A DNA stretch of 64,000 nt from Halomonas eurihalina (GTDB lineage Bacteria; Pseudomonadota; Gammaproteobacteria; Pseudomonadales; Halomonadaceae): positions 248,001 to 312,000 of the forward strand of contig NZ_VTPU01000001.1 of NCBI RefSeq assembly GCF_008274785.1. Direction: 5' to 3'. The position numbers were made by a program, and so were the translations under genes. The notes under the pieces are model-generated. The model ran no database searches. It was given only the letters and a program-made list of their open reading frames with translations, and was not told where the DNA came from. Numbering within the stretch: the first letter of the stretch is position 1; the number at the start of each line of letters is the position of its first letter. Positions 1,133 to 13,928 of this stretch are shown in pieces.

Positions 1133-1295
1133 TTGCGCGTCTCCTCATCGCGTCTTGTTATTCTCGGCGCTTGCTGCACCGAAAACTGTCAGGCGACTAG
1201 ACAAGATAGCAGCTCGTGCCATTCACGCGGTCTACTTCAGGCATCCAGCCAGGGATCGTAGCGGCCAAAATCGACACTGCCCCGCGTCAGGCCAT
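1133..1295. other. Gap upstream of iorA
   Basis: Noncoding on both strands as far as I can see. It should contain the iorA promoter reading leftward, but I find no convincing -35/-10 pair. It ends at the duplicated terminator that marks the left border of the island. Confidence 0.5.
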
Positions 1296-1441
1296 AAAAA
1301 AGCGGCGGGCAAGGCCCGCCGCAGGCGGCATCATCAGTACCGGCGGCCAGGGCACTTCCTTGGCCTGCTTCACGGCGTGGGCGAACAGGTAGGCGAGCGT
1401 CACATAACCGGAGTACATCAGGTAGTCGACGCTGGCCGCGC
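1296..1441. repeat. Left copy of direct repeat: rearranged 3' end of acyl-CoA dehydrogenase gene plus its terminator
   Basis: Bases 1296-1323 repeat 11697-11724 exactly: six A followed by the nine-base-pair hairpin GCGGCGGGC/GCCCGCCGC. Bases 1323-1441 then repeat 11944-12060 with only a two-base insertion and two substitutions that I can see. The roughly 220 bases that lie between these two parts in the right-hand copy are missing here. The fragment cannot code for a protein. Both copies are in the same orientation and border the island that begins just inside. Confidence 0.9.
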
Positions 1442-1531
1442 TACCTTCCGCTCACGTGCCCAGAAGAACATCACCTTGCTGGTCAGCTCAGGTTCGTTGC
1501 CGCAAACAATCAAAGTAGACAGTGGGCGTTG
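1442..1531. other. Junction sequence between the duplicated border and the IS3 remnant
   Basis: About 90 bases of unrecognised sequence between the end of the repeat homology and the broken 3' end of the IS3 orfB remnant. No gene is visible. It contains the left island junction. Confidence 0.4.
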
Positions 1532-2037
1532 CTACGTGATCACGTCCAGGAACCGAGCCAAGTGACGCCCGGATAGGGACGTATCCACCAGTTGACCGAC
1601 ACACTCCCGGCTGAAGTCATCCACGATGTTCAGCACGCGGAATCGATGCCCCGAGGCCAACTGATCCGAAACGAAGTCCATCGACCAGCGCTGGTTGAGC
1701 CTGTTCGGTAGCGCCATCGGCGTCCTTGGCCACACCAGCCATTTGCACCGGCGGGTCCGAACTTAATAGGCCATCCTCGCAGTACAAGCCGGTAGGTACG
1801 CTTGCGCGTTGATCACTAGCCCCTCCTGACGCAACAGCGCATGCAGTAGCAAGTAGCCGTATCGGGGGTAGCCCGTCGCTAAAGCTTGAAGGCATGTCCG
1901 AAGCAGCGCATCGTCTCGCGGTATCGCCTGATACCGAGCCACTGGTCGTGCCAGGCCCAGTAGTCGGCAGGCCCTTCGCTGGCAGAGCCAGCCGCCTATC
2001 ACCAGGTGCTTTACCGCCCGCCGCTTCGCTTCGGGCG
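1532..2037 (-). pseudogene. IS3-family transposase orfB remnant (frameshifted and truncated)
   Basis: Fragments of an IS3-family integrase read in shifting frames on the minus strand. First comes a VTPEAKRRAVKHL segment through PRYGYLLLHALLRQEGLVIN, then GLYCEDGLL in another frame, then QRWSMDFVSDQLASGHRFRVLNIVDDFSRECV in a third, which includes the first two acidic positions of the DDE domain (MDFVSD and NIVDDFSRE). The sequence stops after FLDVIT, before the remaining DDE region. At least two frameshifts plus loss of the C-terminal third make it inactive. The VTPEAKR and RRACRLLGL signatures suggest the IS407-like group. Confidence 0.8.
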
Positions 2038-2304
2038 TCACCACTTTCCCGAGACGACCTCTTTGAGCGCGGCATTGTCGAGGGCGCTTTCCGCCAACAG
2101 CTTCTTCAGTCGGGCATTCTCTGTCTCCAGCTCGCACAGGCGCTTGGCCTCCGAAACTTCCATGCCGCTGTACTTGGCCTTCCAGTGGTAGAAAGTCTGT
2201 TCGGTCACGCCGTTCTACCGGGCCAGTTCGGCGAACGATACGCCGCGCTCGCTGGCCTTGAGGATGCTGATGATCTGCTCTTCGATATATCGGTTGCACT
2301 TCAT
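2038..2304 (-). pseudogene. IS3-family orfA remnant (in-frame stop)
   Basis: An 88-residue reading frame begins MKCNRYIEEQIISIL, has the helix-turn-helix region FAELARxNGVTEQTFYHWK, and ends in a leucine-zipper-like stretch (LCELETENARLKKLL) typical of IS3 OrfA. A TAG at 2215-2217 sits inside the helix-turn-helix where a sense codon is expected, so it is broken. It abuts the orfB remnant in the usual orfA-orfB order. Confidence 0.82.
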
Positions 2305-2449
2305 CGCAATGATCTCCTGCTATCAGAGTAAACATCGCGGAAATCTCACATTGTCGGTGGACCGGTTTCTGGCGGAATGTCAGCATATGGCTCAGGGCCT
2401 TTCCCCAAGGTTGGGCCACCGGAACCTAGAGTTTTCAGGGGGCAGAGCA

Positions 2450-2650
2450 AGTTCGTGGCACGCAAGTAGAATTCGTGCCACCGCTAAGATAGCGGTGGTG
2501 TCGTTCACTTTGCCGAGGATCAGACAGCCATTGGGGAGCACCGTCAAGGTGTCGATGGCTGAGGCGTTGTCCCTGCCCTTGATCAAGTCACTACCCAATG
2601 GCCAGGCATTCATGTTTCTCAACCTTGACCAGAACCAGGTCGATGATCCT
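2450..2650 (-). pseudogene. IS30-family transposase fragment
   Basis: A short minus-strand stretch encodes GSDLIKGRDNASAIDTL and ILGKVNDTTA, which resembles the start of the IS30 DDE domain (usually WEGDLIKG followed by a second strand with a KM/KV-D motif). No start, upstream DNA-binding domain or later catalytic residues remain. It lies between the IS3 remnant and the end of the sugar operon, consistent with repeated insertions at this island edge. Family assignment is from memory of the motif only. Confidence 0.5.
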
Positions 2651-2661
2651 TGGTGTATATT

Positions 2662-3942
2662 TTAAAGGGTAGAATTATCGCATCCATAGCGATAGCGCTT
2701 GAGTACCGCGAATAGTTTCTGCTCCAGCAGCCGGACTGGTAGGTCCTGTTGCTGCGCTCCGTGGGAAGGCGCTTTCCAACTGTGGGATTCAAGGCCGAAG
2801 TATTGCTGAAGTAATGGCATGGGAATATCGATGGCTCGCAGGTTAGCCATCAGCTTATTGACCGCTACTGAGACAATGGGATGGTTCCAGTAGTAACGAA
2901 TTCGATCCGAATAGCTGAACCCTCTCAACCATTTCTGTGTCTGCGCATCGCCGTGGTAATAAGCTTGCCAGGCAGCGGGTTCGTCACACATCACTTGCTC
3001 GATGACGTTACGAAGATGTGAGCGGGAGCTCGGCTCGATCAGTTCCTGTTCGATCGCTGCAAGGGCGAATAGGCCTTCCCTGTAAGCGAAGGTCAACTCC
3101 GGACCGACTTTCAGAATAACAAAACCCTGGTGGACCAAGGCCGCCAACGACTCGGTCGATTGATAGTCGGTGGAGTGCGCCTCAAAGACATAGCTGGGCT
3201 CCTCAGTGCTTGCCGTGATGAGCTCTCGTGCCGCGATGGGATCAAAGGGCATGATATCCTGATCGGAAAAGTCCACCCCAGGCTGCACGACGACGGCAAG
3301 GACCCTGTCCAGAGCGGACATCAGCTCTGCGGCTTGAAAGGCATCACGATGAGTTGCCACCGTTTCCTGAAACCGCGCTGACGTCGTGACAGAAACCGCT
3401 TCCAGTCCCTCGGTCTCACCGCCGGGAATCGGAACCTCGGTGCCGATAATGTAAACCGGCGGAGACTCCGCAGAAGCAGCAGCCTCTGCCACGCGACACA
3501 GGCGCGCCGCACGCTCAGCGACCAAGCGAGCATCCAGCGGAATCTCATCGCCACCCAGAGGCATGGAGGCATCCAGGTGAATCTTGGTAAACCCGGCCTC
3601 GACGTACTCCCGCACCATGGCTTCGGCCAATTGCATGGCCTCTTCAGCAGGTTTACTGCTCCAGGGGTTGGGCCCCAGATGATCCCCTCCGAGCCAAAGC
3701 CTTTGCGTGTCGAAACCTACGATTTCGGCAATCCTTTCGACATACGCGCGGAAATCAGCTGGGCGCATAGACGTGTACCCCCCGAACTGATTGACCTGAT
3801 TGGACGTGGCCTCGATCAGTACGGTACGCTTTGTATCACGGTCAAACGCCAGCGAGGCTTCGATGACTGCAGGGTGTGCTGAGCAAACGGAGCAGATTCC
3901 GGCCTGTTCAGGGGTCAGATATCTCTGCAAGTGGATATTCAT
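2662..3942 (-). CDS. gatZ: GatZ/KbaZ-family tagatose-6-phosphate protein (likely 4-epimerase)
   Basis: 426 residues, full length for the GatZ/KbaZ family (D-tagatose-bisphosphate aldolase class II, non-catalytic subunit). Recognisable features are GICSVCSAHPAVIEASL near the N-terminus, LIEATSNQVNQFGGYTSMRP, LGGDHLGPNPW and FEAHSTDYQ. In E. coli the family works with a catalytic GatY/KbaY partner, which is absent here. I recall that standalone members act as tagatose-6-phosphate 4-epimerases in a galactitol pathway of Agrobacterium, and that role fits better next to a kinase and a polyol dehydrogenase. Last gene of the operon, 39 bases after the kinase. GC is low compared with flanking chromosome. 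Confidence 0.87.
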   Translation of the reverse strand: MNIHLQRYLTPEQAGICSVCSAHPAVIEASLAFDRDTKRTVLIEATSNQVNQFGGYTSMRPADFRAYVERIAEIVGFDTQRLWLGGDHLGPNPWSSKPAEEAMQLAEAMVREYVEAGFTKIHLDASMPLGGDEIPLDARLVAERAARLCRVAEAAASAESPPVYIIGTEVPIPGGETEGLEAVSVTTSARFQETVATHRDAFQAAELMSALDRVLAVVVQPGVDFSDQDIMPFDPIAARELITASTEEPSYVFEAHSTDYQSTESLAALVHQGFVILKVGPELTFAYREGLFALAAIEQELIEPSSRSHLRNVIEQVMCDEPAAWQAYYHGDAQTQKWLRGFSYSDRIRYYWNHPIVSVAVNKLMANLRAIDIPMPLLQQYFGLESHSWKAPSHGAQQQDLPVRLLEQKLFAVLKRYRYGCDNSTL

Positions 3943-3981
3943 GGGCGTACTTCCCTCCTGTCTGAAGGCGTAATGGGTGGG

Positions 3982-4935
3982 CTAGTGAATGTCGGCAGCG
4001 TGTTGTTCGATGAACTCATCCAACTCCGCCATGCTGGAGGCGCCCTCCATCGGGCCCATGCACGTCACGGCACGCGCCCCGGCGGCATTGGCGTAGCGCA
4101 GGCGCTCTTCGATCGACAGGTCATCGCCGAAAAGAGCGATATATGTAGCCCCGAAGCAGTCGCCGGCACCGGTAGGATCGCACTCTTCCACCGTGAAACC
4201 GGGAGCATCGATATGGCGGCCGGAGCGATCATGATAGCGGCCCCCCTTACTGCCGAGTTTGACGATCACCTCATTGACGCCAAGACGAAAAACCTCATCC
4301 AATGCCTGTTGCTCAGTTGCCGTACCAAGTAGTGTGACCAGCTCCCCTTCACTGGGCAGCAGAATGTCAGTGAGCTCGAGAATATAGTTCAGCGCGTCGC
4401 GCATCTCCGGCAAACCCAGCATCTCCTTGCGAATATTGGGATCGAAGGAGACGAGTCCGCCATTCGCTTTGACGCCGCGGATGGCTTTTTGGGTCGCCTC
4501 GATAACTCGGAAAGAGAACAGCGACGTTCCCATGACATGCAAGATTTGGCAGTCCGACAAGCTATCACGGGTAATCTGATTTGGCGTGATCTGGGAACAG
4601 GCCGCGTTGGTGATGTTGTAGATGAAGTCGCGTGAACTGTCCTGATGGTAGGTCACGAAGGCACTACCTGTGGTGGCATTGTTCAACACGCGAATATGCT
4701 CGATATCGACGCCGTCACGTTTCAGGCGTTCGCGATTTAACTCCCCGAATCCATCATCGCCGACACTGCCAAACATGCCGCAGCTTTTACCCAGACGACC
4801 CACTTGGTCGATGAAGATGGCGGGGGCACCGCTGGGATAGGGACCGAGAAACTGGCCCGGCGCATTGAAGGGTTGGCCGCGTTCGGCCGCGATGAATTCC
4901 ACTAGCACCTCGCCGATTGTCATGATCTTGGACAT
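3982..4935 (-). CDS. PfkB-family sugar kinase (candidate tagatose/ketohexose kinase)
   Basis: 317 residues from an ATG preceded by AGGGGAAA. The ribokinase fold is shown by the N-terminal GEVLVEF, a substrate-side GSVGDDGFGE (about residues 56-65) and the C-terminal signature DPTGAGDCFG (253-262), where Asp259 is the catalytic base. It phosphorylates a sugar or keto-sugar with ATP in the cytoplasm. Between a GldA-like dehydrogenase (14-base gap) and a GatZ-family protein, phosphorylation of a ketose such as tagatose is the natural guess, but PfkB substrates cannot be assigned from sequence alone. An upstream in-frame GTG would add six residues and is less well placed. Confidence 0.88.
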   Translation of the reverse strand: MSKIMTIGEVLVEFIAAERGQPFNAPGQFLGPYPSGAPAIFIDQVGRLGKSCGMFGSVGDDGFGELNRERLKRDGVDIEHIRVLNNATTGSAFVTYHQDSSRDFIYNITNAACSQITPNQITRDSLSDCQILHVMGTSLFSFRVIEATQKAIRGVKANGGLVSFDPNIRKEMLGLPEMRDALNYILELTDILLPSEGELVTLLGTATEQQALDEVFRLGVNEVIVKLGSKGGRYHDRSGRHIDAPGFTVEECDPTGAGDCFGATYIALFGDDLSIEERLRYANAAGARAVTCMGPMEGASSMAELDEFIEQHAADIH

Positions 4936-4949
4936 GGCATCTTTCCCCT

Positions 4950-6062
4950 TCACTGGGCCGCGGTGGGCAACGTCTTGAACGCGCGGCCGTAGGCATCAGC
5001 GGCTTTCAGCGCATCGAGGTAGTCCTTATTCTCGTACTGGACGGGCTCGTTGAAGGTGCACTCTCCCGGCCGCATCATACGTTCGACGGCGACCATCAGA
5101 TAGCTGTCGCTGATGTCCTCCACGCCAAGATCCGCCAGCGTCAGAGGCAGGTTGACGGCATGGCACAATTGATAGGTCCGTTCGATCAGATCACTCCCCT
5201 TGTCGGTCAGAAATAGCGACGCCAGGATGCCGAAGGCAACTTTCTCGCCATGCAGTAATCCGTGGGTTTCGTGCCATTCGGCAATACCCTGATGAAAACC
5301 ATGAGCGGCCCCCAGTCCGCCGCTTTCAAAGCCGATCGTGCTCATCAGTGTGGCCGCCTCGACGACACGCTCGAGAGCAGGGGTCACCAGTTTCGCCTCG
5401 CAGTGCGATAGCGCCAGCGGCGCGTATTCGGTCAAGGTCTCGTAGCAGGCGTTGGCGATAACGTACGCCGTGTGGGTCGGGGCATAGCCGGTGAAGTTGC
5501 GGTGACGAGTGGCCCAGGCGGACTCGGCCTCGAACCAGGTAGCCAGGGCATCGGCAATACCCGCACTCAGAAAGCGCGAAGGGGCATTGGCAACGATCCG
5601 GGTATCGATAATGACCATATCGGGGTTATTGCGTCCGTGCAGGTCTCTGGCAACCGAGTGATCTTCGTTGTAGATCACCGCATTCTTGCTGCATGGCGCA
5701 TCCGAGGCAGCAATCGTGGGAATGGCGATGATGCGCGTTCCCGGCGCATAATGAGCCGCGCCCTTGGCGGTGTCGATGGCCTTGCCACCGCCGAGACCAA
5801 TCACGAGATGATGTCCACCGGCCTGGAGCTGCTCGCTCGCGGCGCGCATGGCGTGCTCGGTCGATTCGCCCTCGAAGTCGAAGAACTGAAGAGTGAGTTT
5901 ACCTTGGCAGATATTCTCGATATGCGGGCGCATCCACTCACCGATACCGGGATCGAGCACGACGAGTGCCGTATCGCCCAAAGGAGCTGCCAGGGCGGGC
6001 AGTTCATGTAATGCATCTCGGCCTTGCACGTAGCGAGCGGGGAAGACGGCGCTGGTAATCAT
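4950..6062 (-). CDS. GldA-type polyol dehydrogenase (glycerol dehydrogenase family)
   Basis: 370 residues of the iron-containing/GldA dehydrogenase family. The N-terminal domain has the NAD-binding GLGGGKAIDTAKG (89-101). The metal site is complete: Asp171 (GIADAL), His254 (AAHGFHQG) and His271 (LLHGEKVAFG) match the zinc ligands of bacterial glycerol dehydrogenase. It should oxidise a polyol hydroxyl to a ketone with NAD. Its position between the regulator and a ketose-type kinase suggests the substrate is the desulfated sugar alcohol of this operon rather than glycerol. Ribosome site AAGGAA sits about five bases before the ATG. Confidence 0.88.
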   Translation of the reverse strand: MITSAVFPARYVQGRDALHELPALAAPLGDTALVVLDPGIGEWMRPHIENICQGKLTLQFFDFEGESTEHAMRAASEQLQAGGHHLVIGLGGGKAIDTAKGAAHYAPGTRIIAIPTIAASDAPCSKNAVIYNEDHSVARDLHGRNNPDMVIIDTRIVANAPSRFLSAGIADALATWFEAESAWATRHRNFTGYAPTHTAYVIANACYETLTEYAPLALSHCEAKLVTPALERVVEAATLMSTIGFESGGLGAAHGFHQGIAEWHETHGLLHGEKVAFGILASLFLTDKGSDLIERTYQLCHAVNLPLTLADLGVEDISDSYLMVAVERMMRPGECTFNEPVQYENKDYLDALKAADAYGRAFKTLPTAAQ

Positions 6063-6104
6063 GTATGTTCCTTTATAGTGACGATGAGACCATGGAATTG
6101 AATA

Positions 6105-6914
6105 TCACGGAGCTGAAGTGGCGGCGGTGCGAAAGCGAGCACGCTTGAACTGTAGGGTTTGTCCCTGGATCTGCTGTTGCTGGAATCCGTGCTCAATCAG
6201 GGTTTCGCTCCAGACGTCTTTGAGTTGCGCGAGTAACAGCACCTCGGTGAGGTGCTCGAGTACGCGGAGATGAGCGGCTGGAATACCCGGGCGGCGGATG
6301 ATCCCAATGTTGCGGTCACTCAGGCCACATAGAGCGATGTAATCCTTGCTGGCGGGGTGGTACCCGTCCGGGTCGCCGCCCAGATCGATGAAGCTGCAAT
6401 CAATGCCTCGGCATGTATTGGCCAGCGCCTCTCCCCAGCCGTACAGGACCTCTGCCGCGCTGTCGTAAATGCCCCCCGTCAGTTGAACCCCTTCCAAAGG
6501 CGTATGGTTCTGGACTGATACCAGGGCGGGTGCATCGCTGATTATGTGCAGTTCCGGTATCCCGGACAGCAGAACGGCCATGCGCTGAGCCAGCACGGAT
6601 CCCGCAAGGAAAACATGGTCGCCGGGTTTCACTTGCAACGCAGCCTGATAGGCGACCGGGTAGGCCTGGCGAAAGCGTGATTCGAGCAGACTGAAAGCGT
6701 CGGTCCCGGCGGCGGGATCATCGATGCAGCGGGCGCCCCCAAAAGAGCGAATCAAGTAGCCTTGATCTTCCAGGTACTGGAGATCGGTACGAATGGTGAC
6801 GGTGGTTACACCGTACTGTTCGGCCAGTTCGTTGACGTTGGCATCGCCCTTATCCCTGACATGCTCGGCAATGCTCAGCCGCCGTTTGAGTGCGTTATGA
6901 AGTGATCTTGGCAT
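6105..6914 (-). CDS. DeoR-family transcriptional regulator
   Basis: 269 residues with the DeoR layout. An N-terminal helix-turn-helix (about 12-60: RRLSIAEHV, VNELAEQYGVTTVTIRTDLQYLEDQGYLIR, then GGAR) is followed by a sugar-phosphate-isomerase-like sensor domain with the usual GSV, TGG and IDLGG-type motifs. Members generally repress sugar operons and are released by a phosphorylated intermediate. Its start overlaps the sulfatase-modifying gene by one base (TAATG), so the regulator is made from the operon it probably controls. TTTC-rich sequence upstream of the operon is a candidate binding region. Confidence 0.9.
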   Translation of the reverse strand: MPRSLHNALKRRLSIAEHVRDKGDANVNELAEQYGVTTVTIRTDLQYLEDQGYLIRSFGGARCIDDPAAGTDAFSLLESRFRQAYPVAYQAALQVKPGDHVFLAGSVLAQRMAVLLSGIPELHIISDAPALVSVQNHTPLEGVQLTGGIYDSAAEVLYGWGEALANTCRGIDCSFIDLGGDPDGYHPASKDYIALCGLSDRNIGIIRRPGIPAAHLRVLEHLTEVLLLAQLKDVWSETLIEHGFQQQQIQGQTLQFKRARFRTAATSAP

Positions 6915-7933
6915 TAAGTCGTCTCTGTTGACTGTGTCGAGCAGCCGACTCGTCCGTCTCGAAAAACCGTCCTGAATCCGATATTGGAAGCCGAGGATTC
7001 CGGAGTATTGGAAGAGCGAGCGGAGTTGCGATAACGATTGCAGTAGGAGTCATGGCAAAGGAAAGAGCCTCCACGCATGGTGCGTCGTGTGCCTTGTTCG
7101 GGGCCGCGGGGGTTGCTGAGCGGAGAGGCATCGTAAAAACGAGCATCGAACCAGTCTGCGCACCACTCCCAGACATTGCCGATCATCTGATGCAAACCAT
7201 AGTCGTTCGGTGCGAAGTGATTGGCAGGTGCCGTCGCATCCCAGCCATCCTCGCAGCGATTGAAATGGGGAAACTGGCCTTGCCAAATATTGCAGGGCCA
7301 TGCACCGTTCTGGCCGGTGTCGAGTGTGTCGCCCCAAGGGTAGCGCATCCCCCGCCCCCCTCCCCCACGGCAGGCCCGCTCCCATTGAGCCTCGGTGGGC
7401 AACTGTCGATGGGCCCAACAACAGTACGCCATGGCATCATTCCAGCTCACATGCACCACCGGATGACTTTCGATCCCTTCGAGGGACGATAGCGGACCGG
7501 CAGGATGGCGCCAGTCGGCCCCACGGACGCTCAGCCACCACGAGGTGCCGGGAAAGGCGCCCTCCACATCGCTTGGTTCGGCTTTTAGGTGAGCGTCGAA
7601 GACCGCCGAAGCGCCATGGTGTTCGGCGTCGGTCACGTAGCCGGTGGCCGCGACGAAGGCAGCATAGTCGCGATTGGTAACCGTGGTGATATCTATTGCA
7701 AAAGCATCAAGATAGACGGCGTGTTCTGGCGTTTCTCCATCCTCGTGTGCCCCCTCGTCGAAAGCATCACCCATCCAGAATGCACCATCATCGATTCGAG
7801 CCTGGGCAATGCTGTGACGGCCGGAACCTGCTGCAACAGTCATATCGACTGTTCGTCGCTTTTCCTCCACCACCCGTGAGGGAGTGCAGCAGTCTATTTT
7901 GGAGTTCTCTTTGTGATCGTCCGAATGGCTCAT
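6914..7933 (-). CDS. Formylglycine-generating enzyme (sulfatase-modifying factor)
   Basis: 339 residues of the SUMF1/FGE-sulfatase family. It oxidises the active-site cysteine of Cys-type sulfatases to formylglycine. The C-terminal catalytic pair is Cys293 and Cys298 (RGGSFLCHDSYCNRYR), followed by NTPESSASNIGFR, all as in verified FGEs. ERACRGGGGRGMRYPWGD and MIGNVWEWCADWF are further signatures. There is no signal peptide, so it acts in the cytoplasm on the sulfatase encoded 22 bases upstream. The start at 7933 keeps it clear of the sulfatase gene; a longer frame to 8155 would run into that gene. Unusual: residues 16-20 read CTPSR, which itself fits the sulfatase modification motif. Confidence 0.93.
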   Translation of the reverse strand: MSHSDDHKENSKIDCCTPSRVVEEKRRTVDMTVAAGSGRHSIAQARIDDGAFWMGDAFDEGAHEDGETPEHAVYLDAFAIDITTVTNRDYAAFVAATGYVTDAEHHGASAVFDAHLKAEPSDVEGAFPGTSWWLSVRGADWRHPAGPLSSLEGIESHPVVHVSWNDAMAYCCWAHRQLPTEAQWERACRGGGGRGMRYPWGDTLDTGQNGAWPCNIWQGQFPHFNRCEDGWDATAPANHFAPNDYGLHQMIGNVWEWCADWFDARFYDASPLSNPRGPEQGTRRTMRGGSFLCHDSYCNRYRNSARSSNTPESSASNIGFRTVFRDGRVGCSTQSTETT

Positions 7934-7955
7934 TGTCGCGTTACCTATTACCCAG

Positions 7956-9398
7956 TTATCGATAAGGCGCTGACCAGGTGGCCGTGCGCAGGGCGCTTTC
8001 GGCTCTCCAGTGTGCGATGACTTCCTGTAGGTGCTGGCGAATGGCAGCAACGGTCTCGTCATCCCATAGGTTATACATCTCTCCCGGATCGCGCTGCATG
8101 TCGAAGAGTTGCCCTTCATCACTGTCGATGAATTCAACGAGTTTCCAGCGTTCATCTCTCACCATCGTCATCAGTTCGGTGCCACTGAAAATGAAATCAT
8201 AGGCATGCTCCGAAAAGACGAAATCGCGGCCAGAAAACTGTTCGCCTCGAATCGCCGGCAGCAGCGTTTTCGCCTCCATCCATGGCGGCGGTTCGATACC
8301 GGCCAGCTCCAAGATGGTCGGACCAAAATCAATCAGCGACGTCAGTCCATCGACGCGCTGATTCCGGGCAACGCCGCGTCCCCAAACGATGGCGGGAACG
8401 TGTACACTCTCTTCGTACATCGTCCACTTCTGACTGTGCCAATGATCATTGAGACAGTCTCCATGGTCGGACGTGAAGATGATGACCGTATTGTCGAGCA
8501 CACCACGTGATTCCAGTGCCGACATCAATTCGCCAACCTGGTGATCGATCATGGTGACGTTGGCGTAATAATAACGGCGCTGACGTTCGATCTGATCCAT
8601 ACCGGGATTATCCTGATGAACGATGGCGTCGTGATCGTCGTCAATATGATTTTTACGCAAGGTTCGAAGCGGTTTCGGCTGGCTTTCGAGCTCTTCTCGG
8701 CTCAATTCCGGTAGTGGTATTTCACGGCTTTCGTAGCGTTTCAGCGCTTCCTTTGTCGGGTCGTATGGAGGGTGTGGTCCCGGGAAGCCCACCTCGAGGA
8801 AAAAGGGTTCGTCTGCCTTTATTTTGTAGCGATCGATCCATTCATGGGCCAAATTTCCCACGAAGTTGTCGGAGTGAAGATCATCTGCAGCAGGCCATTC
8901 GAATGCGCCAAGGCGCTGCGAGTAGTCGGGGATATCCCGTTTGTAGGTCGCACGCCCAGGCTTTTCGACGCCCCTGACCCATAGGGCCTTGTCCCATTGA
9001 TCTAGGAAGAAAGGCTGAGAGGGATGGTTGCGATCCTTGTTTTCCACGACATGACGCTCGTGAAAGCCCAGCGGGGTCTCATAGGGATAGGTGTGCATCT
9101 TGCCAATGTTGACGCAGCGGTAGCCGTCATCTGCTAGCTGCTCGACCCAAGAGTGGCGCCAAGGATCCTCATTGCGCAAGACGCCGCTACTGTGGGGATA
9201 GAGACCACTGAATAGCGCGGCACGAGAGGGCGCGCAGGAGGGAGCAGCGGCATAGGTGCGTGTGAAGGTGGTCCCCTCTTTAACCAATCGATCCAGGTTC
9301 GGGGTAATGACGTGATCGTGTCCCAATGCGGCAATGGTATCGAAGCGTTGCTGGTCGGTAATGATGAAAACGATATTGGGCTTGGACTCGGTTTTCAT
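7956..9398 (-). CDS. Type I (Cys-type) sulfatase, cytosolic
   Basis: 480 residues of the alkaline-phosphatase/sulfatase superfamily. The N-terminus NIVFIITDQQRFD supplies metal-binding Asp15, and the modification motif is Cys55-Ala-Pro-Ser-Arg59 (SCAPSRAALFSGLYPHSSGV), which needs conversion to formylglycine. FTSDHGDCLNDHW provides further metal ligands. The absence of a signal peptide means the substrate, a sulfate ester, must be imported first, matching the adjacent transporter. The small N-terminal core and total length suit enzymes acting on small sulfated sugars or related esters rather than on polymers. Start ATG has GAGG eight bases upstream. Exact substrate unknown. Confidence 0.94.
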   Translation of the reverse strand: MKTESKPNIVFIITDQQRFDTIAALGHDHVITPNLDRLVKEGTTFTRTYAAAPSCAPSRAALFSGLYPHSSGVLRNEDPWRHSWVEQLADDGYRCVNIGKMHTYPYETPLGFHERHVVENKDRNHPSQPFFLDQWDKALWVRGVEKPGRATYKRDIPDYSQRLGAFEWPAADDLHSDNFVGNLAHEWIDRYKIKADEPFFLEVGFPGPHPPYDPTKEALKRYESREIPLPELSREELESQPKPLRTLRKNHIDDDHDAIVHQDNPGMDQIERQRRYYYANVTMIDHQVGELMSALESRGVLDNTVIIFTSDHGDCLNDHWHSQKWTMYEESVHVPAIVWGRGVARNQRVDGLTSLIDFGPTILELAGIEPPPWMEAKTLLPAIRGEQFSGRDFVFSEHAYDFIFSGTELMTMVRDERWKLVEFIDSDEGQLFDMQRDPGEMYNLWDDETVAAIRQHLQEVIAHWRAESALRTATWSAPYR

Positions 9399-9414
9399 GA
9401 ATGGTGCCTCGTGA

Positions 9415-10731
9415 CTATTTGAGAATGGACGAGCGATAAGTTTCTGTCAGGAAAAGCGTGCAGATGAAGCTCATGATCGCAATTGCCGTGACATAGACAG
9501 CAGCACCCCAGTAGCTTCCTGCGATGCCTACCAGTGTCAGGGCAATGAGAGGTGTCGGAGCTCCACCGATCAGTGATGATCCTTGATACACCACACCCAG
9601 CGCGGTATAGCGAACCTTGGTGGTAAACAGTTCGGCAAAGAAGGTTCCCTGGATCGAAAACATCAACCCGGTTCCTACGGCCTGCGTCAGAATGATGGCT
9701 AGCCAGGCTATCCATACACTGTTGAGAGACAGCATGGGGAAATAGGCCAATCCCGCCATGGCACAGACGATCGTGCCACTGAGGTAGACGGGGCGACGCC
9801 CGATACGATCGGATAGCGTGCCGAAGATAGGGATGAGTCCTATCTGAATACCGGCCGATATTACGAATCCCGTCAACATCACTTCGTTAGCCAAGCCTAA
9901 TTCTCGTGTGGCGTAGGCGATACCGAAGACATTGACGATATTGAAGGTAACCGCGTCGCACATACGTGCGCCTACCGCCAGAAGCAGTGCGCCGGGATGC
10001 TGGCGTAGCAGGGAAATGAAAGGTATTTGCTTGGCCCCTTTCGTGTCTTCGGAACGCTGGAAGACTTCGGTTTCGGGCAGCTTGTCGCGGATATACAGCG
10101 CCAGGACCAAGAACAGGCCTGATAGAAAGAAAGGAAGCCGCCAGGCCCAATCCATCACGGTCTCCTGTGGCAGTAACATGACCAGGGAGAAAACCCCGGT
10201 GGCGACTAGAATCCCCGCTGGCGTCCCCATCTGGTGAAAGCTCCCCATCAGTCCACGCTTTTGGCTTGGCGCATTCTCTAGCGCGACCAGGGCTCCTCCG
10301 CCAAATTCGCCACCAATGCCGAACCCCTGCACCGTGCGCAGCAGAACCAACAGGGCCGGCGCAAGCCAACCAGATGATTGATAGGTGGGGAGAAGGCCTA
10401 TCAATAACGTGCACATCCCCATGATGAGCACACTGAGTAACAACATTTTCTTGCGTCCATAACGATCACCAAGATGACCAAAGACCAGCGCGCCGACCGG
10501 ACGCGCAAGAAAACCGGCGGCGAAAGAACCAAACGCTCCAACCAGTCCCGCCCCTTCAGGAAAGAACAGTTGAGGAAAGACGACTGCGGCAGCGGTCCCA
10601 TACAAGGAATAGTCATACCATTCTATGAATGATCCGCTAAACGCAGCGAAGCTGGCATGCTTCGATGACGTGGTATGAACAGTACCAGGAGGCGTTCTGC
10701 TGCCGCTGGTGGCTTCGGATATGGTATCCAT
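9415..10731 (-). CDS. MFS transporter, metabolite:H+ symporter type
   Basis: About 438 residues with twelve predicted membrane segments. The N-terminal SGSFIEWYDYSLYG and the loop GHLGDRYGRKK after FLARPVGALVFG are hallmarks of the MHS group (ShiA/ProP-like) that imports organic metabolites with protons. First gene of the operon, 16 bases before the sulfatase, so it most likely imports the sulfated substrate. The start at 10731 has AGGAG upstream at a slightly long spacing; an in-frame ATG at 10800 would add a charged 23-residue extension and is less likely. Confidence 0.9.
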   Translation of the reverse strand: MDTISEATSGSRTPPGTVHTTSSKHASFAAFSGSFIEWYDYSLYGTAAAVVFPQLFFPEGAGLVGAFGSFAAGFLARPVGALVFGHLGDRYGRKKMLLLSVLIMGMCTLLIGLLPTYQSSGWLAPALLVLLRTVQGFGIGGEFGGGALVALENAPSQKRGLMGSFHQMGTPAGILVATGVFSLVMLLPQETVMDWAWRLPFFLSGLFLVLALYIRDKLPETEVFQRSEDTKGAKQIPFISLLRQHPGALLLAVGARMCDAVTFNIVNVFGIAYATRELGLANEVMLTGFVISAGIQIGLIPIFGTLSDRIGRRPVYLSGTIVCAMAGLAYFPMLSLNSVWIAWLAIILTQAVGTGLMFSIQGTFFAELFTTKVRYTALGVVYQGSSLIGGAPTPLIALTLVGIAGSYWGAAVYVTAIAIMSFICTLFLTETYRSSILK

Positions 10732-11019
10732 GGCTGTGACGGTGCTCCTAGTTTTGTAATTTTTCAAATGAAAGTTTTCAAAGCGTGTCAGCTCGTGCAA
10801 GGCTGTGTCACTTAGACATTAGTCGTTAATTTATCCGTGACGGGCAATTATTTTTTTCTTTTCGAAAGCATAGTCGCGATTTTCGAGGCTTATTTAGGTT
10901 CAGCGCAGATCAGCGTGAAACCAGCAAGGCTGGTGGCGAGGGCAAGAAAGAGAAACGGCGGTAAATCTGAGTAAGCTGATATTCGCTAAAACGTCAGCCT
11001 ACGGACATCGCCGTTACCA
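10732..11019. promoter_or_regulatory. Upstream region of the sulfatase/sugar operon
   Basis: AT-rich noncoding stretch, in contrast to the GC-rich chromosome. On the minus strand TTGAAA (10781-10776) and TACAAA (10758-10753) are 17 bases apart and could form a promoter, but the resulting leader would be very short. Several TTTC/GAAA half-sites, including the palindrome TTTCGAAA near 10860, could be bound by the DeoR-family regulator. All assignments here are pattern-based and tentative. Confidence 0.35.
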
Positions 11020-11692
11020 TGGATACTCCCCTGCTCCCTCAAGGTGAGACGCTTACGCTGTCCGGCTTGTGGCCCAACACGAGAGCGCATCGACTGGTTG
11101 CCCGGGCGCTCGCCGGTCACCACCGCGCTGAGCTAGTGGGTGGAGCGTTTGGTCACGTTGCTGCCGATCCGGCATGTCGCGGACCGGGTTCGCTTGCATT
11201 GGCATACCGTCAAGACCATCGACAAGCAGTGCCTGCAACGAGACCTGATGGCACCGGACCCGACACACAGCGGCTAATGATGGACGAGTTAAGTTTGCAC
11301 AAGGGGCACCGCTACGCCACCGTGGTCGCCTGCACTGATACCCAGCAGGTGGTCTGGGTCGGTAAAGGCCGCTCCCACGGAGCGATCCACCCGTTCTTCG
11401 AGTGGCTGGGCGAGGCACGAGAACAGATCGAGGCCATCGCCATGGACATGAATTCGGTCTTCGATCTCGAAGTGAAGGACCAATGTCTCACGCAGAGGTG
11501 GTCTACGATCTCTTCCATGTGGTGGCCAAATATGGGCGTGAGGTGGTAGACCGGGTGCGCGTCGACCAAGCCAATCAGCTGCGCAATGACAAAGCGGCCC
11601 GCAAGGCCATCAAGCGGATGGCCTACGGGTACCGCGATACGGCATGCTTCTTCCTGAATATTCGTGCCGCGTTTCCCGGCAAAGTGCGATGA
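11020..11692 (+). pseudogene. ISL3-family transposase remnant
   Basis: Homology continues through several frames. CPACGPTRERIDWLPGR comes first, then an in-frame stop, then WVERLVTLLPI and the ISL3 helix-turn-helix region LHWHTVKTIDKQ. A second frame carries MDELSLHKGHRYATVV and AMDMNSVFDLEVK. A third carries VVYDLFHVVAKYGREVVDRVRVDQANQLR. It ends shortly after this, without the C-terminal domain. With stops, two frameshifts and truncation it cannot be active. It marks the right side of the island, opposite the IS3 and IS30 remnants. Confidence 0.85.
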
Positions 11693-11696
11693 ACCT

Positions 11697-11723
11697 AAAA
11701 AAGCGGCGGGCAAGGCCCGCCGC
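11697..11723 (-). terminator. Rho-independent terminator of the acyl-CoA dehydrogenase gene
   Basis: On the minus strand a perfect nine-base-pair stem GCGGCGGGC/GCCCGCCGC with a three-base loop is followed directly by six T. It lies about 75 bases after the acyl-CoA dehydrogenase stop. An identical copy is at 1296-1322. Confidence 0.9.
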
Positions 11724-12060
11724 AACACCGATCAGAGCGCCCGATCAGAGAGAGTCACAGGAAAGAGAACGTCACAGGAAAGAAAAAGCCACGGGAATCA
11801 GATTTCGAACCCACGACCAAAGTCGTCGGGAGACAGCGCCATCAGCGACTCGCCACCGGCCTGGATCATCTGGACGTGGGCGCGGGTGCGCGGCAGCAGC
11901 CGTTCATAGTAGAAACGCGCGGTGTTGACCTTGGCACGGTAGAAGGCGGCATCATCAGTACCGGCGGCCAGGGCACTCTTGGCCTGCTTCGCGGCGCGGG
12001 CGAACAGGTAGGCGAGCGTCACATAACCGGAGTACATCAGGTAGTCGACGCTGGCCGCGC
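11697..12060. repeat. Right copy of island-border direct repeat
   Basis: Intact source of the rearranged copy at 1296-1441: the terminator (11697-11724) and part of the coding sequence (11944-12060) recur there in the same orientation. Here the acyl-CoA dehydrogenase gene is whole, so this copy is taken as the original. Recombination between the copies would remove the intervening sulfatase island. Confidence 0.88.
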
Positions 12061-13609
12061 CCACTTCCTCACGGTCGTTCATGGCCTTCATGCCCACGCC
12101 CATGGTCAACTCGCCCCACTCAGCATTGAGCTTGGCCAACGGACGCACGAACTCGGCCATGTCGGGATTGCCTTCTTCGGCCTGGCAGAACTTGTGGATC
12201 TCCTTGGTGAAGACCTTGAGCGTCTCACCCTGGCTCATCAACACCTTGCGACCCAGCAGGTCGAGAGCCTGGATACCGGTGGTGCCTTCATAGAGACGAG
12301 TGATACGGGCATCGCGCACCAGTTGCTCCATGCCCCATTCCTGGATGAAGCCGTGGCCGCCGAACACCTGTACGCCCTCATTGGTCGCCTCAAACCCGAC
12401 CTCGGTGAGAAACGCCTTGACGATGGGCGTCAGCAGGCCGAGCAGGGTCTCGGCACGCTCGGTCTGCTCGGCATCGTCACTGCGCTCCACCACATCGACC
12501 ATCTGCGCCGCATAGAGCACCAGCATGCGGCCACCCTCGGCGAAGGCCTTCTGGGTCAGCAGCATGCGGCGGACATCCGGGTGCACAATGATCGGATCGG
12601 CAGGCTTGTCTTCGGCCTTGGCGCCGGACAGTGCACGCATCTGCAGGCGATCCCGTGCATAGGCCAGAGCGTTCTGGAAGCTGGCCTCGGTGAGACCGAG
12701 CCCCTGGATGCCCACCCCGATGCGCGCGGCATTCATCATGGTGAACATGCAGGCCAGCCCCTTGTGGGGCTTGCCGACCAGAAAGCCACGGGCGCCATCG
12801 AAGTTCATCACGCAGGTGGCGTTGCCATGGATGCCCATCTTGTGCTCAAGCGAGCCGCAACTCACACCGTTGCGCGCTCCCGGATTGCCGTCGGCATCCG
12901 GCAGGAACTTCGGCACCACGAACAACGAGATACCCTTGGAACCGGCCGGAGCATCCGGCAGCTTGGCCAGCACCAGGTGCACGATATTCTCGGCCAGGTC
13001 ATGGTCGCCGGCGGAGATGAAGATCTTGGTGCCGCTGAGCGTGTAGCTGTCGTCCTCGTTGGGTACCGCCCGAGTCTTGATCAGTCCCAGGTCGGTGCCG
13101 CAATGCGGCTCGGTCAGGCACATGGTGCCGGTCCACACGCCCTCGACCAGCTTGCTCAGGTAGGTGGCTTGCTGTGCTTCGGTGCCATGATGACGCAAGG
13201 CATCGGCGGCCCCATGGGACAGCCCCGGATACATGCCCCAAGCCAGATTGGTGGCACAAATCATCTCCGAGAGCACCATGGCAAGCGACGGCGGTAGCCC
13301 CTGCCCACCCTGCTCCGGGTCGGCGGCCAGGCTCGGCCAGCCACCTTCCACATAGCGGCTATACGCCTCCTTGAAGCCCTTCGGCGTCTTGACCTCACCG
13401 CCCTCCAGCAAACAACCTTCCAGGTCGCCGCTCTGGTTCAGTGGCAGCAGCTCTTCGCGTGCGAAGCGCGCCCCCTCCTCGAGGATCGCCCCAACCACAT
13501 CGGGCGTTGCCTCCTCGCCACCGGGCAATCCCGCATAATGGGTCGGATAGTCGAGCATCTCGTCCATGACGAAGCGCAGATCACGCAAGGGGGCCTGGTA
13601 GTCGGGCAT
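11798..13609 (-). CDS. Acyl-CoA dehydrogenase with C-terminal extension domain
   Basis: 603 residues, the length of the large acyl-CoA dehydrogenases (FadE5/DmdC-like) that add a C-terminal domain to the three usual ones. CLTEPHCGTDLG is the FAD-contact signature, VFGGHGFIQEWGMEQLVRDARI contains the late family signature, and RLYEGTTGIQALDLLGRK is characteristic of this subgroup. It introduces the alpha-beta double bond in an acyl-CoA and passes electrons to ETF. Start at the ATG with AGGAGAGAG upstream. A strong terminator follows the stop. A heptad repeat separates it from the next gene, so it is probably its own transcription unit. Confidence 0.92.
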   Translation of the reverse strand: MPDYQAPLRDLRFVMDEMLDYPTHYAGLPGGEEATPDVVGAILEEGARFAREELLPLNQSGDLEGCLLEGGEVKTPKGFKEAYSRYVEGGWPSLAADPEQGGQGLPPSLAMVLSEMICATNLAWGMYPGLSHGAADALRHHGTEAQQATYLSKLVEGVWTGTMCLTEPHCGTDLGLIKTRAVPNEDDSYTLSGTKIFISAGDHDLAENIVHLVLAKLPDAPAGSKGISLFVVPKFLPDADGNPGARNGVSCGSLEHKMGIHGNATCVMNFDGARGFLVGKPHKGLACMFTMMNAARIGVGIQGLGLTEASFQNALAYARDRLQMRALSGAKAEDKPADPIIVHPDVRRMLLTQKAFAEGGRMLVLYAAQMVDVVERSDDAEQTERAETLLGLLTPIVKAFLTEVGFEATNEGVQVFGGHGFIQEWGMEQLVRDARITRLYEGTTGIQALDLLGRKVLMSQGETLKVFTKEIHKFCQAEEGNPDMAEFVRPLAKLNAEWGELTMGVGMKAMNDREEVGAASVDYLMYSGYVTLAYLFARAAKQAKSALAAGTDDAAFYRAKVNTARFYYERLLPRTRAHVQMIQAGGESLMALSPDDFGRGFEI

Positions 13610-13730
13610 TGTCTCTCTCCTCGAACGCGGACGCATGAAGCGGCCGAACCGCTTGCAAACAGCCTTTCAAACAATTGTTTGAAATTACGCCCACGAGACA
13701 GGGCAGTCAAGCGTTCGTTTAAACCAAGCC

Positions 13731-13928
<198 letters not shown>

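Follow-up and report, generated by a model that had tools for sequence, protein, structure and literature searches.

A candidate operon for uptake, cytosolic desulfation and catabolism of a small sulfated polyol in Halomonas eurihalina

The window studied here is a stretch of 64,000 nucleotides from Halomonas eurihalina (assembly GCF_008274785.1, contig NZ_VTPU01000001.1, positions 248,001 to 312,000). Near its left end lies an operon that encodes, in the order of transcription, a carrier of the metabolite:H+ symporter (MHS) type, a sulfatase, a formylglycine-generating enzyme (FGE), a DeoR-family regulator, a GldA-type dehydrogenase, a PfkB kinase and a GatZ protein (Table 1). An earlier reading, made from the sequence alone, had described seven minus-strand genes with gaps of 42 bases or less, and all seven open reading frames were verified at 2662-10731 and on that strand. 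The first four junctions measure 16, 22, -1 and 42 bases. The genes for dehydrogenase and kinase overlap in the sequence GTGA if the kinase starts with GTG or are separated by 14 bases if it starts with ATG, and a gap of 39 bases follows between kinase and GatZ. Chance family matches can be excluded because E-values reach 1e-168.

The encoded proteins and the genomic setting

The sulfatase matches the PF00884 Sulfatase domain with 190.8 bits and carries the motif C55-A-P-S-R, the signature of type I (formylglycine) sulfatases, in which Cys55, Pro57 and Arg59 do not vary across 27 relatives. The assignment as a Cys-type sulfatase devoid of a signal peptide was borne out: in the structural model, the protein starts 7 residues before the first strand and a signal peptide would therefore have no space. 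The AlphaFold model (mean pLDDT 86.6) shows the general S1 sulfatase fold, with SpAS2 and the S1_46 enzyme BT1918 as the nearest solved structures (Z 42-43), and the structure search provided no substrate hint beyond that fold. Two specific identities were rejected, that of a choline sulfatase (TIGR03417, 210.8 bits, cut-off 433.45) and that of an arylsulfatase (PRK13759, 328.3 bits, cut-off 481). The protein has the equipment of a type I sulfatase and would hydrolyse a sulfate ester.

The neighbouring FGE matches the FGE-sulfatase domain with 253 bits and FGE 6muj with 351 bits. Both catalytic cysteines noted earlier are aligned with those of the known enzyme (C-x4-C) and, within the segment SFLCHDSYC, match positions in the FGE of Streptomyces coelicolor. 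ATG 7933 is the best start because the longest open reading frame (413 amino acids) would overlap the sulfatase gene. The protein is the sole PF03781 match in the genome. On other contigs, the genome encodes two further Cys-type sulfatases without signal peptides (L002:1309-2892 and L003:832-2406). One of these is encoded next to a BCCT carrier and appears to be the choline sulfatase of the organism; the other shares its locus with a TRAP permease and a regulator of the IclR type. All three enzymes may be matured by the operon FGE.

The dehydrogenase was recognized by the Fe-ADH model (104 bits) and by the GldA subfamily model PRK09423 with 390.4 bits, above the cut-off of 336. Its residues D171, H254 and H271 align to conserved metal-site positions of the Thermotoga glycerol dehydrogenase 1kq3, in agreement with the complete metal site proposed before. 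The kinase belongs to the PfkB family (137 bits). Its best family model is that for tagatose kinases, NF049991, followed by a model scoring 136 bits, and it is the best match within its own genome (runner-up 126 bits). A kinase from a Rhizobium polyol cluster scores 503 bits with this model and one from a Halomonadaceae polyol cluster only 339; we thus term the window kinase tagatose-kinase-like and take the model as a guide, not as proof.

GatZ matches PF08013 (GatZ_KbaZ) with 562 bits across residues 6-421. An alignment with E. coli GatZ (2fiq) shows that all residues proposed to form the C4-epimerase site are retained, namely C20, E44, D87/H88 and one Glu, His and Lys each; the list of residues is taken from PMC11907403. 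It falls below TIGR02810, the model for the non-catalytic aldolase subunit (558.4 versus 568.8 bits), and the genome encodes no GatY/KbaY protein that exceeds the cut-off of that family (best match 165 versus 443.55 bits). A role as subunit of a tagatose-bisphosphate aldolase was rejected on the latter ground, and the protein is indeed standalone, as originally suggested. In vivo, the formation of tagatose from glucose by way of fructose 6-phosphate is restored by GatZ and KbaZ of E. coli but not by GatY, KbaY or FbaA (PMC11907403). The carrier is an MFS protein with MHS models as best matches; the model for the shikimate transporter, PRK09952, gave 365.6 bits. The regulator contains an HTH_DeoR domain (PF08220, 54.6 bits), and its top NCBIfam match is AgaR (73.7).

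The G+C content of the insert is about 54-59%, compared with 62-67% in most of the surrounding sequence, and broken transposases, of the IS3 type on the left and the ISL3 type on the right, flank the operon. No part of 1450-11690 aligned at the corresponding site of four congeners, and the same holds for the left flank (1-1258). The backbone conserved in these congeners begins at 11693-11795 and continues rightward through the acyl-CoA dehydrogenase gene. The partial repeat to the left of the insert is 95-100% identical to parts of its right-hand counterpart, and the same pieces match the 3' region of the congeners' acyl-CoA dehydrogenase gene. The operon looks horizontally acquired, apparently in recent times. 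At 13717-13828, shortly before the start of the acyl-CoA dehydrogenase gene, a unit of 7 bases (GCGAGAT and variants) is repeated in tandem.

Table 1 Features of the operon and its borders in the window.
Feature	Position	Strand	Evidence
MHS-type MFS importer, first gene, 438 aa	9415..10731	-	TIGR00883 and PRK09952 matches; paired with sulfatase in relatives
Cytosolic Cys-type sulfatase (predicted), 480 aa; Cys55 codon 9234-9236	7956..9398	-	PF00884, C-A-P-S-R
FGE, 339 aa, predicted to mature the sulfatase	6914..7933	-	match to FGE 6muj
DeoR-family regulator, start overlaps FGE stop	6105..6914	-	PF08220
GldA-type dehydrogenase, proposed hexitol 2-dehydrogenase	4950..6062	-	PRK09423 subfamily, metal site
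PfkB kinase, tagatose-kinase-like	3982..4953 (start GTG 4953 or ATG 4935)	-	NF049991
Standalone GatZ/KbaZ protein, proposed tagatose 6-phosphate 4-epimerase	2662..3942	-	PF08013
Decayed IS3-type transposase, left edge	1535..2304	-	HTH_Tnp_1 and rve pieces, separate frames, stops
Decayed ISL3-type transposase, right edge	10980..11689	+	DDE_Tnp_ISL3 split over two frames
Partial repeat to the left of the insert, with 3' end of the acyl-CoA dehydrogenase gene and its terminator	1295..1449 (within 1258-1449)	.	matches parts of 11696-12068
Right-hand counterpart of repeat, at conserved-backbone boundary	11696..12068	.	alignment to four congeners

Gene neighbourhoods of the sulfatase and of the sugar-directed genes

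A scan of 84,980 species genomes yielded 328 relatives of the sulfatase, and the neighbourhoods of the best 80, to which the following counts refer, were examined by translated search. The nearest enzymes are 69-70% identical and stem from Salinicola; the wider search for the operon across 391 genomes of the order returned only H. eurihalina itself and Salinicola. In a tree of 81 sulfatases, the window enzyme groups with those of Salinicola inside a clade that also contains Actinomycetota. An MHS carrier is encoded directly upstream of the sulfatase at 18 loci (4 in Salinicola, 11 in Actinomycetota, 3 in Rhizobiales), 15 of which have a divergent SorC-type regulator with a sugar-binding domain, and the MHS neighbours of the orthologous sulfatases are 50-64% identical to the window importer. 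At 12 loci the sulfatase gene is located downstream of genes for a sugar ABC binding protein and permeases; other loci encode SsuABC-like or tripartite tricarboxylate transporters (TTT). Transporter type tracks the sulfatase tree with 4 changes, compared with 22 expected by shuffling. That sulfatases without signal peptides reside repeatedly beside unrelated inner-membrane importers fits import before desulfation.

The enzymes encoded around the sulfatase genes speak for polyols. A dehydrogenase of the medium-chain (MDR) superfamily, sorbitol/idonate type, directly follows the sulfatase in two Labedella species and in Microbacterium. The order is ABC-sulfatase-ATPase-MDR in Salipiger, ABC-sulfatase-ATPase-L-iditol 2-dehydrogenase in Martelella (414.6 bits for the dehydrogenase, cut-off 338) and sulfatase-ABC-MDR-FGGY kinase-ScrK-like fructokinase in Paenibacillus. 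Neorhizobium exhibits the order sugar kinase-LacD-type aldolase-short-chain dehydrogenase (SDR), followed after other genes by FGE-sulfatase, and Nakamurella the order sulfatase-GFO/IDH oxidoreductase-DeoR-ADP-dependent-type kinase-LacD-type aldolase-FGE. The occurrence of unrelated enzyme families with similar chemistry beside the sulfatase suggests that the released alcohol is oxidized to a ketose and phosphorylated.

Some of these loci deserve mention in their own right. That of Nakamurella endophytica (L030:11334-16879) is another possible complete route for a sulfated sugar. At rhizobial loci (L047, L048, L042 and related ones), a sulfate-ester cluster recurs in which two divergently encoded sulfatases of about 50% identity are accompanied by an FGE, a LacI regulator and an ABC transporter of the SsuABC-like type. 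A plasmid of Halococcus dombrowskii (L134, 5413-9455) carries genes for an FGE, a gluconate-type symporter and a 54% identical sulfatase between archaeal insertion sequences, which suggests transfer of the sulfatase module into haloarchaea.

A neighbourhood search for the same seven families, as had been envisaged in the sequence-only reading, found the full set only in H. eurihalina, while partial combinations recur. Among the best 80 of the 328 relatives, none has the tagatose half in the same operon as the sulfatase. Of 275 genomes of the family, 5 contain the sulfatase, 24 GatZ (both as matches at E<=1e-60) and 2 the GldA clade, and all three occur together only in the window genome. The single close GldA relative (59-60% identity) among the 274 other family genomes belongs to Salinicola corii, which also has a sulfatase orthologue. 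Its gene resides at a different locus with the order DeoR-TRAP (3 genes)-second Cys-type sulfatase without signal peptide-GldA-SDR (L158:4010-11290); NCBIfam models gave no match to this second sulfatase at E<=1e-40. A further 368 sampled genomes of the class revealed no member of the GldA clade, and for plasmid-encoded glycerol dehydrogenases with 41-46% identity, the three cases examined listed no sulfatase in the vicinity. The GatZ and kinase most similar to those of the window (58 and 60%) come from a relative (G005) with the order DeoR-kinase-GatZ-SDR, flanked by two MFS sugar porters and without a sulfatase, which identifies this half as a sugar cassette. Other Halomonadaceae possess ABC-SDR-kinase-GatZ-mannitol dehydrogenase clusters (names assigned by inspection of the sequences). 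The window operon therefore has the appearance of a standard polyol cassette with GldA as its dehydrogenase and with MHS-sulfatase-FGE substituted for the importer.

This distribution also bears on the question of whether the operon is one functional unit. Insertion sequences could have joined two unrelated modules by shuffling, MHS-sulfatase-FGE for scavenging sulfate from esters and DeoR-GldA-kinase-GatZ for degradation of a free polyol. The two halves do occur separately, the first in Salinicola and the second next to the sugar porters of G005, and decayed transposases lie on both flanks of the island. We nevertheless regard such a fortuitous junction as unlikely: FGE and DeoR genes overlap by one base, the tagatose half lacks a sugar importer of its own here, and other taxa pair the same sulfatase with polyol dehydrogenases and ketose kinases. 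Furthermore, the closest GldA sits in another sulfatase operon, and the tie of its clade to a second, distinct cytosolic sulfatase speaks against accidental joining.

The proposed route and the identity of the substrate

We propose, with moderate confidence, that the operon was acquired horizontally as a unit and serves to catabolise a small sulfated polyol, a hexitol sulfate being the likeliest. The anionic ester would be imported intact by the MHS-type carrier, as judged from the protein family and the conserved pairing with the sulfatase. Once Cys55 has been converted to formylglycine by the operon FGE, the sulfatase, whose catalytic parts are in place, would release sulfate in the cytosol. 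The free hexitol would then be oxidized by GldA, for which family and metal site are established, to a ketohexose, probably D-tagatose, from which the tagatose-kinase-like PfkB protein would form tagatose 6-phosphate. GatZ, whose active site is intact and whose E. coli counterparts GatZ and KbaZ are known to have this activity, would epimerize this compound at C4 to fructose 6-phosphate, which enters glycolysis. DeoR may sense a sugar phosphate of the pathway, and the bacterium would gain both carbon and sulfate. This route from a sulfated hexitol to fructose 6-phosphate uses every gene of the operon. Among hexitols, tagatose would be the expected product of galactitol and of D-altritol/D-talitol (stereochemistry in PMC12193009), and sulfates of these are candidate substrates.

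As to the sequence-only reading, which had inferred import, cytosolic desulfation and entry into glycolysis of a sulfated hexitol or hexose, intact import, cytosolic desulfation and conversion of a polyol to a ketose phosphate are supported by families, active sites and neighbourhoods. The tagatose branch did not turn out to be a general partner of the sulfatase. The neighbouring genes favour a sugar alcohol and a hexose less so.

Several points weigh against a hexitol sulfate and the tagatose branch. The identity of the substrate is itself deduced from sequence. The models for kinase, MHS carrier and GatZ as aldolase subunit were all narrowly or moderately missed: the kinase reaches 409.5 bits with NF049991 (cut-off 420) and the importer 387.8 bits with TIGR00883 (cut-off 443.45), hence the designation "MHS-type". 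GldA-type enzymes are promiscuous, and their usual substrates are glycerol or propanediol. The four Salinicola genomes bearing the 69% identical sulfatase have no GatZ match at E<=1e-60, so that the desulfated product need not pass through tagatose there. In three related Rhizobium genomes, GatZ is encoded 1.5-4 kb from the sulfatase, in two of them along with a tagatose kinase; however, these genes lie on the strand opposite to the sulfatase and, where both are present, adjoin an ABC transporter of their own, so that the proximity may be accidental. Some neighbours of related sulfatases resemble idonate, gluconate and inosose dehydrogenases, which makes a sulfated aldonate or cyclitol possible. 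Finally, a partial search of the literature found no hexitol sulfate as a natural compound.

The same logic could apply to another carbon skeleton. The ester would then derive from a pentitol, a cyclitol or an aldonate, and kinase and GatZ would act on a different pair of ketoses with unlike configuration at C4. In addition to the dehydrogenases just mentioned, an FGGY kinase resembling xylulokinases and a symporter for gluconate, both near related sulfatases, point in this direction. We consider this quite unlikely for the window operon, whose kinase fits the tagatose kinase model far better than those for ribokinase or 2-keto-3-deoxygluconate (KDG) kinase and whose GatZ retains the site for epimerization of fructose 6-phosphate and tagatose 6-phosphate. 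Sugar sulfates are common in red-algal galactans, and BT1918, which comes nearest among solved sulfatases in both sequence and Foldseek comparisons, is a glycan enzyme. Both observations could speak for a sulfated hexose or ketohexose (galactose or tagatose sulfate) as the substrate, GldA then being accessory or a reductase. The lack of an aldose isomerase in the operon and the recurrence of alcohol dehydrogenases, not isomerases, next to related sulfatases render this improbable. It is highly improbable that the sulfatase acts as a choline-sulfatase-like or aryl-sulfatase enzyme on a non-sugar ester. Organic acids and betaines are frequent substrates of MHS carriers, and choline-sulfatase structures are among the nearest folds, but the corresponding models, TIGR03417 and PRK13759, remain far under their cut-offs, and the sulfatase beside the BCCT carrier is a different one.

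Relation to known systems and implications

In the utilization of choline-O-sulfate, a small sulfate ester is imported intact and cleaved by the cytosolic Cys-type sulfatase BetC. The proposed route shares these two features and a related fold; it differs by downstream genes that are of the sugar type rather than the betaine type. The galactitol (gat) system of E. coli relies on uptake by a phosphotransferase system (PTS) and on tagatose-bisphosphate aldolase. Both this system (GatYZ/KbaYZ) and the window include the GatZ family, whereas the window operon has no PTS, its genome no GatY/KbaY above the cut-off, and a sulfatase is added. In 2015, Wichelecki et al. (J Biol Chem 290:28963, cited in PMC12193009) reportedly described D-altritol and galactitol pathways of Agrobacterium tumefaciens C58. 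A tagatose kinase and a GatZ-type epimerase belong to the enzymes of this organism's route. Kinase and GatZ families are common to both organisms; in A. tumefaciens they are combined with SDR/MDR dehydrogenases and a polyol ABC importer, in H. eurihalina with a GldA-type dehydrogenase, an MHS-type carrier and a sulfatase-FGE front end. D-altritol dehydrogenase yields D-tagatose in the A. tumefaciens C58 pathways (PMC12193009), and an epimerase for fructose 6-phosphate and tagatose 6-phosphate has been reported from that organism (PMC11907403).

The best solved relative, BT1918 (S1_46 3-O-sulfo-GlcNAc sulfatase, 7oz8; about 30% identity, Z 42), degrades glycans in the periplasm and possesses an N-acetyl pocket (PMC10154612), in contrast to the predicted cytosolic location of the window sulfatase. 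The carbohydrate-sulfatase loci of Bacteroides employ formylglycine-type sulfatases on sulfated sugars (PMC10154612). These act outside the cytosol on glycans, while we propose import first and a monomer as substrate. A partial search of the literature revealed no matching description of hexitol sulfates, of sugar sulfatases in the cytoplasm or of an operon that links a sulfatase with tagatose genes. Known enzyme families are thus combined in a route that is apparently undescribed.

The sulfatase clade spans Actinomycetota, Pseudomonadota, Bacillota, Planctomycetota and haloarchaea. We tentatively suggest, at somewhat less than even confidence, that cytosolic polyol-sulfate catabolism is a widespread undescribed strategy, in which one clade of sulfatases repeatedly recruits varied importers together with polyol dehydrogenases and with aldolases or kinases for ketoses, the window operon being its tagatose-branch version. 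If so, an unrecognized natural pool of sulfated sugar alcohols would be implied; the best-studied bacterial carbohydrate sulfatases are mostly extracytosolic and act on polymers. The binding proteins of the ABC-type relatives offer a direct handle on substrate identity. A large group of sulfatases annotated merely as arylsulfatases would acquire a function and sulfated sugar alcohols would have to be counted among bacterial nutrients, and a self-sufficient operon dedicated to a sulfated monomer would represent a further route in the cycling of carbon and sulfur in marine and saline environments.

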